From contig JAJDNG010000019.1 of assembly GCA_022340845.1 (NCBI GenBank), positions 1-35,915 of the forward strand: DNA of 35,915 nt, given 5' to 3'. Below are positions 31,734 to 34,750 of this stretch, piece by piece (the first letter of the stretch is position 1; each line of letters starts with the position of its first letter). Source of the DNA: Gammaproteobacteria bacterium (GTDB lineage: Bacteria > Pseudomonadota > Gammaproteobacteria > SZUA-152). The notes beneath the pieces are model-generated. The model was not told the origin of the DNA. It ran no database searches and saw only the letters and a list, made by a program, of their open reading frames with translations. The position numbers and the translations under genes were made by a program.

Positions 31734-32300
31734 CTACAACAGCTTTTTGATGATGGATTCTGCCTGGTCGCGCTTCAATTCTTCCCTTTGCCTGTGGACA
31801 ATGTTGCCATCGCGGTCAATGAAGACAGTATAGGGTAGAGCGCCAAAGCGGTTGCCATAGGTTTTGGAAATTTCGATGGCGTCATCCACGCCGGTTAACA
31901 TGGGATAATTGACGCCGTAGGTATCCATAAATTCTTTGACTTTGCTGATTTCATCAATCGCTACACCCACAAACTGCAAGCCTTGCGGCCCGAATTCATC
32001 CTGCAGGTCGACAAACATGGGCGTTTCCCGGCGGCAAGGTGGGCACCAAGTGGCCCAAAAATTCAACACGATCACATTACCCTGCCATTGATGAATGTTA
32101 TGCGGGGCTCCGTCGAGGTCCGGCAAGGTGAATTCCGGGGCTTTTTGCTGCGCCGAGGTTAGGCTCACGTCGGCGTGTTTACCCTCGGCGTCAGTCGCAG
32201 TTTGGTCCTGTGAGCTGCTGACAATCATTTTTACCAATTGACTGCCACCCCAAATGCCGACCACAAATGTGAGAATTAACAAAATGTGTCTGGTTTTCAT
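31734..32300 (-). CDS. TlpA-like membrane-anchored thioredoxin-fold protein
   Basis: 188 residues. An N-terminal signal anchor (HILLILTFVVGIWGGSQL) holds it in the inner membrane facing the periplasm. The AhpC/TSA-thioredoxin domain starts at PEFTLPDLDG. NFWATWCPPCRRE has the redox pair Cys86/Cys89, and GALPYTVFID gives the cis-Pro. It is a ResA/TlpA-type reductant of periplasmic disulfides, for example in cytochrome c maturation. It starts 56 bp after the dsbD stop, and DsbD is the expected electron donor. Confidence 0.92.
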   Translation of the reverse strand: MKTRHILLILTFVVGIWGGSQLVKMIVSSSQDQTATDAEGKHADVSLTSAQQKAPEFTLPDLDGAPHNIHQWQGNVIVLNFWATWCPPCRRETPMFVDLQDEFGPQGLQFVGVAIDEISKVKEFMDTYGVNYPMLTGVDDAIEISKTYGNRFGALPYTVFIDRDGNIVHRQREELKRDQAESIIKKLL

Positions 32301-32356: not shown

Positions 32357-34711
32357 TCAGCCGGTGACTTTTTCCAGATGTGCTTTAAACTTGTCAGGAG
32401 ACAGAAAACCCACCAGGCGGAAGTTGCGTTTTTCCTGACCCGTGCGGTCGAAAAACAATATGGAGGGCGGGCCGACCAAGCCGAAGTTTTTCAACAGCGC
32501 CTGGTCCAGCTCATCATTTGGGGTAACGTCCGCTTTGAGTAACACCACGTTTTGCAGTGCTTGCCGCACGCCCGGATCTGAGAAGGTGTATTTTTCCATT
32601 TCTTTACAGGAGATGCACCAGTCGGCATAAAAATCCAGCATTACCACTTTACCTTCGGCCTGGGCCGCTTGCAGTTCACGATTCAGTCCATCCAAGCCTT
32701 TGATTTTCTTAAATTGCAATTTCTGCTGCGCCACGCTAGTCGATGCCGTACCACCGCCGGCGAAACTGACGCCTTTTAACGGCTGCAATGGGTCGCTGCT
32801 ACCGCCGGCCACACCCACCAGCAACAAGGCGCCGTAGATCAAACCAATCAGGCCGACACCTTTCCATAGTTTGTGCCATCCTGAGGCCCCTTGGGGGATG
32901 GATTCCAGCGCGCCCATGTAGATCGAGGATACAATGAGCAGGGCCGCCCACAGCAACATGATCACCTCAGCGGGTAAGATACGCTCCATCATCCAAATAG
33001 CCACCGCCAGTAACAACACGCCGAAAACCGCTTTGACGGCGTCCATCCAACCGCCGGCTCTGGGCAGCAATTTACCCGCCGCCGTGCCTATGACCAGCAA
33101 GGGTGCACCCATGCCAAGACTCAGGGCGAACAAGGCGCCGCCCCCCAAGACGGCATCGCCGGTCTGACCGATATAAATCAACGCACCCATCAGTGGCGCG
33201 GCGACACACGGGCCGACGATGAGCGCGGACAACAGCCCCATAATGGCGACGCCGGTGAGTGTACCGCCTTGCTGGCGGTTGCTCAGTTCGGTGAGTTTGC
33301 TTTGAATGGCGGTAGGCATTTGAATTTCGTAAAATCCAAACATGGAAAACGACAACGCCACGAACACCAGTGCAAAGGTGGATAAAATCCAGGGATTTTG
33401 AAATGCCGCCTGCAGATTGCTGCCGAACAATCCGGCGATAACTCCAGCCACCGTATAGGTCAACGCCATAGCCAGCACGTAGACCAGCGACATGGTAAAT
33501 GCCTTGCGCGTGGTGATATTGTCGCCCTGTCCGGCGATGATGCTGGATAAAATGGGGATCATGGGAAACACGCAGGGGGTGAATGCCAGCAGCAGTCCCG
33601 AGCCAAAGAATATCAATAAGGTCAGCAGGAAATTGCCGCTTTTAATGGTGTCCGCCAGCTGATCCTGCTCGGAGACAAATTCTTCACCAGAAGGCCCGCC
33701 ACCCATAGCGCCACCGCCGCTGGCGGCCTGCGGTGCCTCGGCCACAGGCATTCCCTTTGGCAGGGATATGGGCATGACACTTTTCATGGGCGGATAACAA
33801 AAGCCACGGTCTGCGCAGCCTTGGAATTTTGCCACCAACGTCACTTCAGTGGGATCAAGCAGGGTACGGTTGAGAGATAATGAGACCTCCGCTTCATGGT
33901 AATACACTTCCATGCGGCCAAAGGATTCATCCACTTTTTCCTTGCCGTGGGGCATAGTGATGGTCCCTAAGGTGACACCCTCGGCGTTTTGCAATTCGAA
34001 TTTAATTTTGTCGCGATACAGGTAATAGCCGTCGCGAATGTCCCAGCGGGCTTTGATGAGGTTGCCGTTTTCGGCTTCGGCGGAAAAAACAAACACCTGT
34101 TCACCGGGCAGGAATTCCTCTTCATTACTGCTCAACCCCAGTGAGTCGCCCAGTTTTTTTAACGCCGACAATGGACCGCCGGAATCGTTCGGGGATTCCT
34201 CTGCTGCAGCGCTGGCAGCGGCCGGCAGCGGTGGCAGATTTAATGACACCTGCTGTTTTTGTGGAGGGTAACACAGGCCAATATCGGCGCACCCTTGGGA
34301 TACTATGGTGAGGTCCAGAGTCTGGGCGTCAGCCGAGCGTACAATAGGAATATCAATGGCAATTTTGCCCCGGTAGGTTTCCACCTCACCAAAGAATTCG
34401 TCAGACTTGATTTTGCCTTTGGGGTATACCGCCTCCTGCACGCTGATATCCGGTGTATTGCTGATGAACTTGAATTTTTCCCGATAGAGGTAATAACCGT
34501 CAACAATATCCCATTCGGCGCGGATCATATCGGCTGCCGTAACGGAAGTGCTCAAGACGAACGCTTGTTCGGGAGGTAACGGTTCATCGGCATTGAGCCC
34601 CAGTTCATCCGGTGGGATATCCGCCGACGCCGGGCATGTCAACGTCAGGAAGGTCGTAAAGACCACACTTAGGGTACTAAATACGGTGAATCGTTTTGAT
34701 AAAGCGTTCAT
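32357..34711 (-). CDS. dsbD: Thiol:disulfide interchange protein DsbD with two N-terminal catalytic domains
   Basis: 784 residues from ATG 34711. It carries electrons from cytoplasmic thioredoxin across the inner membrane to periplasmic proteins. A signal peptide is followed by two tandem nDsbD (alpha) domains. Both have the WDI-x-DGYYLYR strand and a QGCAD-x-G-x-CYPP cysteine pair (Cys141/Cys147 and Cys299/Cys305). E. coli DsbD has one such domain and about 565 residues. The membrane part (about eight segments) has the cysteines of LLAFTPCVFPMIP and IVGPCVAAPLMGA. The C-terminal thioredoxin-like domain ends the protein with FYADWCISC. The frame also opens at TTG 34723, but GAGG at 34718-34721 is 6 nt from ATG 34711, so that ATG is chosen. 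Confidence 0.96.
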   Translation of the reverse strand: MNALSKRFTVFSTLSVVFTTFLTLTCPASADIPPDELGLNADEPLPPEQAFVLSTSVTAADMIRAEWDIVDGYYLYREKFKFISNTPDISVQEAVYPKGKIKSDEFFGEVETYRGKIAIDIPIVRSADAQTLDLTIVSQGCADIGLCYPPQKQQVSLNLPPLPAAASAAAEESPNDSGGPLSALKKLGDSLGLSSNEEEFLPGEQVFVFSAEAENGNLIKARWDIRDGYYLYRDKIKFELQNAEGVTLGTITMPHGKEKVDESFGRMEVYYHEAEVSLSLNRTLLDPTEVTLVAKFQGCADRGFCYPPMKSVMPISLPKGMPVAEAPQAASGGGAMGGGPSGEEFVSEQDQLADTIKSGNFLLTLLIFFGSGLLLAFTPCVFPMIPILSSIIAGQGDNITTRKAFTMSLVYVLAMALTYTVAGVIAGLFGSNLQAAFQNPWILSTFALVFVALSFSMFGFYEIQMPTAIQSKLTELSNRQQGGTLTGVAIMGLLSALIVGPCVAAPLMGALIYIGQTGDAVLGGGALFALSLGMGAPLLVIGTAAGKLLPRAGGWMDAVKAVFGVLLLAVAIWMMERILPAEVIMLLWAALLIVSSIYMGALESIPQGASGWHKLWKGVGLIGLIYGALLLVGVAGGSSDPLQPLKGVSFAGGGTASTSVAQQKLQFKKIKGLDGLNRELQAAQAEGKVVMLDFYADWCISCKEMEKYTFSDPGVRQALQNVVLLKADVTPNDELDQALLKNFGLVGPPSILFFDRTGQEKRNFRLVGFLSPDKFKAHLEKVTG

Positions 34712-34721: not shown

Positions 34722-34750
34722 AAAAATAAAATAAAAGATTATTGTGTGAC

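Follow-up and report, generated by a model that had tools for sequence, protein, structure and literature searches.

DsbD is a bacterial membrane protein that delivers reducing power to the cell envelope. Descriptions of it usually show a single output domain, and the E. coli protein has one nDsbD; how one nDsbD picks among its several clients is, to our knowledge, still open. We sought to understand a dsbD gene that encodes two nDsbD domains in tandem, on a 35,915-nucleotide stretch of gammaproteobacterial DNA (contig JAJDNG010000019.1; this whole stretch is called the window below). We asked whether both copies are intact, how widespread and how old the double form is, and which clients accompany it.

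Two nDsbD domains on one DsbD

The gene lies on the minus strand (32357..34711), starts with the ATG at 34711 and encodes 784 amino acids; an alternative TTG start at 34723 is also open in the list of reading frames. Its whole product scored 752.2 bits with the NCBIfam DsbD model NF001419 (cut-off 330), as a full-length DsbD does, and Pfam ordered its domains as DsbD_N twice, then DsbD_TM, then a thioredoxin domain. DsbD_N (PF11412) matched the reading frame at 117.6 and 105 bits against a cut-off of 25, with 213.7 bits in two stretches over the whole protein. The transmembrane core, DsbD_TM (PF02683; 32804..33640, minus strand), scored 344 bits and contains the two redox cysteines of such a core, C380 and C502, while the C-terminal thioredoxin-fold domain, cDsbD (32360..32719, minus strand), matched E. 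coli cDsbD 2fwe with an E value of 1.1e-35 and has its CxxC in the motif WCISC (C699/C702). Pfam together with structure-sequence matches placed the outer nDsbD domain, n1, at about 34226-34594 and the inner one, n2, at 33752-34132, both on the minus strand. A C-x5-C pair is present separately in each: C141/C147 in n1 (minus-strand codons 34289-34291 and 34271-34273) and C299/C305 in n2 (minus-strand codons 33815-33817 and 33797-33799). The product has nine cysteines, one in a signal-like segment and four pairs, located in n1, n2, the core and WCISC. Equivalents of the residues by which nDsbD is recognised (the C103/C109 pair, Y40, Y42 and D68) occur twice, DGYYLYR is common to n1 and n2, and the two domains are 41% identical. 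Taken alone, n1 and n2 matched solved nDsbD structures by sequence with best E values of 5.8e-19 and 1.3e-20, respectively. A reading made earlier from the DNA letters (the sequence-only reading) had proposed that this DsbD carries two complete nDsbD domains, each with its own Cys pair and with DGYYLYR, and had recommended a domain search; the paired PF11412 matches and the two Cys pairs confirmed this proposal, and both active sites are intact.

In the AlphaFold2 model of the tandem (mean pLDDT 89.8, pTM 0.49) both domains were predicted well, whereas the linker between them (34133..34225, minus strand) was poorly ordered and held one predicted short helix, PLSALKKLGDSLGL, with its first codon at 34172-34174 on the minus strand; the mutual position of n1 and n2 in this model is not firm. 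The best 18 Foldseek matches of the tandem model were all nDsbD chains, and the matches include the complexes 1vrs, 1jzd and 1z5y. VIA-align superposed n1 onto E. coli and Neisseria nDsbD with Z up to 17.2, and n2 onto Neisseria nDsbD in one row (2k0r) with Z 13.7.

Canonical DsbD, as found in E. coli and Neisseria (PF11412, PF02683 and thioredoxin), has the same transmembrane core, C-terminal thioredoxin, nDsbD fold and active site. The solved nDsbD forms that we found have one nDsbD per chain, in contrast to two here, and canonical DsbD has three Cys pairs where this protein has four. ScsB of Proteus mirabilis (6c29) resembles this protein in carrying tandem Ig-like domains before a DsbD-like membrane core; the tandem model matched 6c29 in Foldseek with an E value of 2.6e-8, and one 6c29 domain aligned on n1 at Z 11.1 in VIA-align. 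By sequence, the tandem profile gave no match to 6c29 up to E 10, and an ScsB-like relative from our survey, L134, matched it with an E value of 0.00053. ScsB has a single catalytic pair in its N-terminal periplasmic region, and L134, read by eye, has one Cys pair between signal segment and membrane part, as opposed to two in this protein. The motif NLMPCV, seen by eye in L134 and in a further relative, L123, is absent from this DsbD, which passes the full DsbD model. The gene is a DsbD by every feature tested and departs from the usual description solely in its number of nDsbD domains.

Spread, signatures and age of the two copies

The sequence-only reading had considered the double form unusual, with the proviso that a form common in the clade would be a lineage trait. 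Our genome surveys found it to be common. In the window's family, 22 of 24 genomes (its own included) had a PF11412 match, and all 22 carried it twice in one reading frame. Elsewhere in the class, where each family was represented by one genome, 65 of 72 genomes had a match, and the tandem pair was present in 23 of these 65, about one third of class families. A draw of 120 genomes from the phylum yielded 60 with a match, the tandem form occurring in 4 of the 28 from this class (again including the window's own) and in 0 of the 32 from other classes. Tandem counts in the class and phylum surveys were read by hand from match lists, and the two samples share G000, G030, G035, G036 and G077. On the strength of the family, class and phylum surveys we rejected the idea that the double form is a novelty of this genome and regard it as the lineage trait of that proviso. 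Among named loci similar to the query, a sample biased by its selection for similarity, 74 of 80 proteins were double, including those of Thiomicrospira isolates, Candidatus Thiodiazotropha and tubeworm symbionts. One named double, L096, comes from a contig whose title, Rhodospirillaceae, points to the Alphaproteobacteria; it is the sole such label among the named doubles and may reflect a misnamed bin. Three nDsbD copies were found in none of the 145 proteins kept, 12 others (incomplete, fragmented or replaced by a longer version of themselves) having been dropped before alignment. A plasmid search found a DsbD relative in 2045 records, in every case at less than 60% identity, and in the 10 of these 2045 that were listed each match spans under 1.8 kb, too short for the double form.

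Seven loci with weaker or other-type matches were missed by the HMM (L114, L125, L134, L140, L147, L169 and L173) and are absent from the trees, which comprise 25 doubles and 38 singles. Four of them (L173, G088:C37; L114, G025:C12; L125, G037:C23; L169, G085:C4) are large proteins with a SIGYSTCHWCHVM-type motif, which we take to be DUF255/YyaL-like; each carries a PF11412 nDsbD-like domain near its C-terminus, fused to a non-DsbD protein. L123 (G035:C33) has tandem nDsbD on a membrane core with the ScsB-like motif NLMPCVLPILSLKALGLA and sits on a very long branch, and a tandem pair is present too in G182 and G186, which have the family code of L123. We also asked whether the long singles L176 and L179 conceal a second domain and rejected this, as by eye their additional N-terminal residues seem to be read-through from ahead of the true start codon.

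Both copies have kept their active sites. The active-site cysteines are invariant in 102 of 102 n1 and 102 of 102 n2 domains, many of them from close relatives, and in a one-per-family set of 25 pairs (the window and one genus mate included) D68, Q101 and Y110 are kept in every n1 and every n2. A few other positions separate the copies. At E. coli position 100, 19 of the 25 pairs combine a non-aromatic residue, mostly Ser, in n1 with an aromatic one in n2, and 0 show the reverse; at position 78, Arg or Lys occurs in 23/25 n1 (mostly Arg) versus 5/25 n2. An aromatic residue at position 70, the cap position, is found in 18/25 n1 versus 11/25 n2, with discordant pairs split 9 to 2 (p 0.065); the sign tests on these positions treat related pairs as independent. 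At positions 70, 100 and 78, respectively, the window's protein has F106, S138 and R114 in n1 and S263, F296 and Y271 in n2. According to PMC7347389, F70 in the cap loop of the E. coli protein shields the active site, and F or Y occupies the cap position in 53% of 134 sequences, one per genus. Mean identity was 40% within n1, 38% within n2 and 39% between copies of one protein; since these values are alike, the divergence of n1 from n2 rests on few positions. As judged from these alignments, n1 has its own conserved signature across families.

The sequence-only reading had recommended a tree of both copies to date the duplication. In our domain tree, which has 90 rows, few columns and a bootstrap that had not settled, 19 of 25 n1 domains formed one loosely supported group (84/90) that also held two single domains; the other six n1 lay outside it, and most n2 were intermixed with single-domain sequences. 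The approximately unbiased (AU) test rejected the window's n1 and n2 as sisters (WIN_n1+WIN_n2 clade, p-AU 0.0086). This result ruled out a recent duplication and indicated that n1 and n2 are old paralogues. A single clade for all 25 n1 was not rejected (p-AU 0.159), so that one old duplication can explain the data, more than one origin being possible with six n1 rows elsewhere. A leave-one-out profile sorted 23/25 n1 and 23/25 n2 correctly and scored 35 of 40 single-domain sequences as n2-like, E. coli and Neisseria included, yet Neisseria nDsbD fell on the n1 side of the domain tree. From these assignments n2 is probably the ancestral-type port. L158 is a single whose domain is strongly n1-type in the profile and sister to L145_n1 in the domain tree (100/87); in the core tree its core groups with another single, L166, and not with L145. 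Either nDsbD type seems able to stand alone on a DsbD core.

On the core tree, which was built quickly and has some very long branches, we counted 12 changes between the double and the single state; gain or loss of the extra domain is therefore possible. The pattern of the short linker helix, written after viewing the sequences and counted descriptively, lies ahead of n2 in 17/25 doubles and ahead of n1 in 1/25; it precedes the domain in 7/38 singles, some of these matches falling inside signal segments. In some singles, for example L130, L131 and L177, the helix motif directly follows the signal segment. These three of the seven branch from within the n2 domains (96/90), and the core tree groups them with a double (support 95); the helix pattern, the nesting and the core group together fit a loss of n1 in their lineages. 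In L112, n1 and n2 were sisters in the domain tree (99/82). An independent duplication there is doubtful because L112 still carries the n1 signature (S and R versus F and Y); we consider gene conversion or an error in the tree equally likely.

Given its age and its frequency in the class, we regard the double form as an unstudied variant rather than a single-genome oddity. The architecture is visible to anyone who looks, because Pfam models the domain and reports two matches. Among the open-licence papers searched we found none on a double nDsbD, and the accessible part of the text of PMC7347389 contains none of 'two nDsbD', 'tandem' or 'duplicat'. The double form is seemingly an undescribed variant of DsbD.

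The adjoining tlpA-like gene and candidate clients

A candidate partner is encoded 56 bases downstream of dsbD (31734..32300, minus strand): a TlpA/ResA-like thiol-disulfide protein with the motif WCPPC, for which no NCBIfam model scored above its own cut-off. The gene order fxsA, cutA, dsbD, tlpA, aroQ, accB, accC recurs in many loci among those listed, the names other than dsbD and tlpA-like being presumed by recognition. The sequence-only reading had envisaged a special tie between the double form and this neighbour, and a port dedicated to the adjacent protein would be in keeping with a tlpA gene lying next to dsbD in 17/24 doubles versus 12/38 singles (Fisher p 0.0039, kinship uncorrected; L117 excluded because its flank was too short). 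Within the locus marked by a downstream aroQ, however, the neighbour was present in 15/20 doubles versus 9/13 singles, an independent-pair test (six pairs on supported branches) showed no effect of the double form on tlpA adjacency, and 7/24 doubles had no adjacent tlpA. The tie was not borne out within the aroQ locus, and a dedicated port is hardly credible. The tlpA-like neighbour goes with this locus rather than with the double form of DsbD.

In the draft genome (91.6% complete), PF02683 matched one protein, this DsbD, the related PF13386 being outside the search; one DsbC-type protein and one CcmG above the cut-off were also found. The same genome (G000) encodes 15 redoxin-family proteins above the cut-off, the product of the adjoining tlpA-like gene among them. 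The sequence-only reading had suggested that an extra domain could allow one transporter to serve two partners in the periplasm simultaneously, for example the TlpA-like neighbour and a DsbC-type isomerase, and several candidate clients are encoded in this genome. We compared clients across 61 genomes, 25 double and 36 single, leaving aside G031, G037, G048, G054, G061 and G084, whose DsbD was incomplete or was not recovered, as well as the 7 genomes of the class with no PF11412 match. The median number of redoxin-family genes, a count in which PF08534 presumably picks up peroxiredoxins as well, was 11 in the doubles versus 6 in the singles. In a model that took account of genome size and of the core tree of DsbD, the latter standing in for a species tree, the excess of redoxin/TlpA-type genes in doubles was +4.0 (p 1.6e-5), and under full tree weight it was 3.4 (p 0.00037). 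On log counts p was 0.00085, and 0.0012 with response regulators as covariate; response regulators themselves, a rough control using first-look candidate counts because the scored counts stopped at a ceiling of 62, showed no effect on log counts (p 0.43). An independent-pair test on supported branches (6 pairs) found no difference in redoxin number with the double form. DsbC was present in 23/25 doubles versus 24/36 singles (p 0.03, uncorrected), and CcmG about equally in both (21/25 versus 26/36).

Two putative output ports and their rivals

In the established E. coli pathway, electrons pass from cytoplasmic thioredoxin to the transmembrane Cys pair and on to cDsbD, as set out in PMC7347389. 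The protein described here would carry electrons in the same way from cytoplasmic thioredoxin to C380/C502 and then to C699/C702 of cDsbD, which may reduce either n2 or n1. Each of these would in turn pass electrons to periplasmic thioredoxin-fold clients, for example CcmG, DsbC and TlpA-like proteins. Here n2 would be the ancestral-type port and n1 an old added copy, N-terminal to the linker helix and n2, that probably serves a subset of clients. We assign a probability of about 50% to this reading, one membrane shuttle ending in two parallel, diverged output ports. It is the simplest reading because each nDsbD type is also found without the other on DsbD cores and each retains its catalytic residues. 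Transfer would be parallel rather than serial, with the partners of n1 and n2 specialised; such specialisation is plausible, given that n1 has a conserved signature and that doubles correlate with client number. A narrower version, in which n2 is the general port and n1 an ancient specialised port, marked by Ser100/Arg78, for an expanded set of TlpA-type clients, we put forward tentatively and at less than even odds.

If the two copies were simply interchangeable, raising flux or the number of docking sites without different partners, conserved active sites in both and more redoxin-type genes in doubles would be expected, as observed. Such plain redundancy does not predict the distinct n1 and n2 signatures across families, and we consider it unlikely. 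A serial relay, from cDsbD to n2, from n2 to n1 and from there to clients far from the membrane, would suit the sequence order, in which n2 adjoins the membrane core and n1 lies outside it on the linker, as well as the bias of the aromatic cap at position 70 towards n1 noted above. The n1-type domain of L158, however, stands alone before a DsbD core, so n1 seems not to need n2; moreover, one and the same active site of nDsbD serves both cDsbD and the clients, and we know of no electron transfer from one nDsbD to another. The relay is, in our estimate, distinctly unlikely. It is quite improbable that the double form is a lineage trait of little functional weight, with drift deciding where an old tandem duplication persisted or disappeared: all 102 double proteins examined retain both Cys pairs, although the patchy spread (23/65 matched class families) and the 12 changes on the core tree would fit drift.

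Roughly a third of the class families with a match in our sample have two output domains, and singles of the n2 type, together with one or more of the n1 type, exist in nature for comparison. If n1 and n2 are functionally distinct ports, as in the narrower version above, the pathway that reduces the envelope in many Gammaproteobacteria would be branched within DsbD itself.
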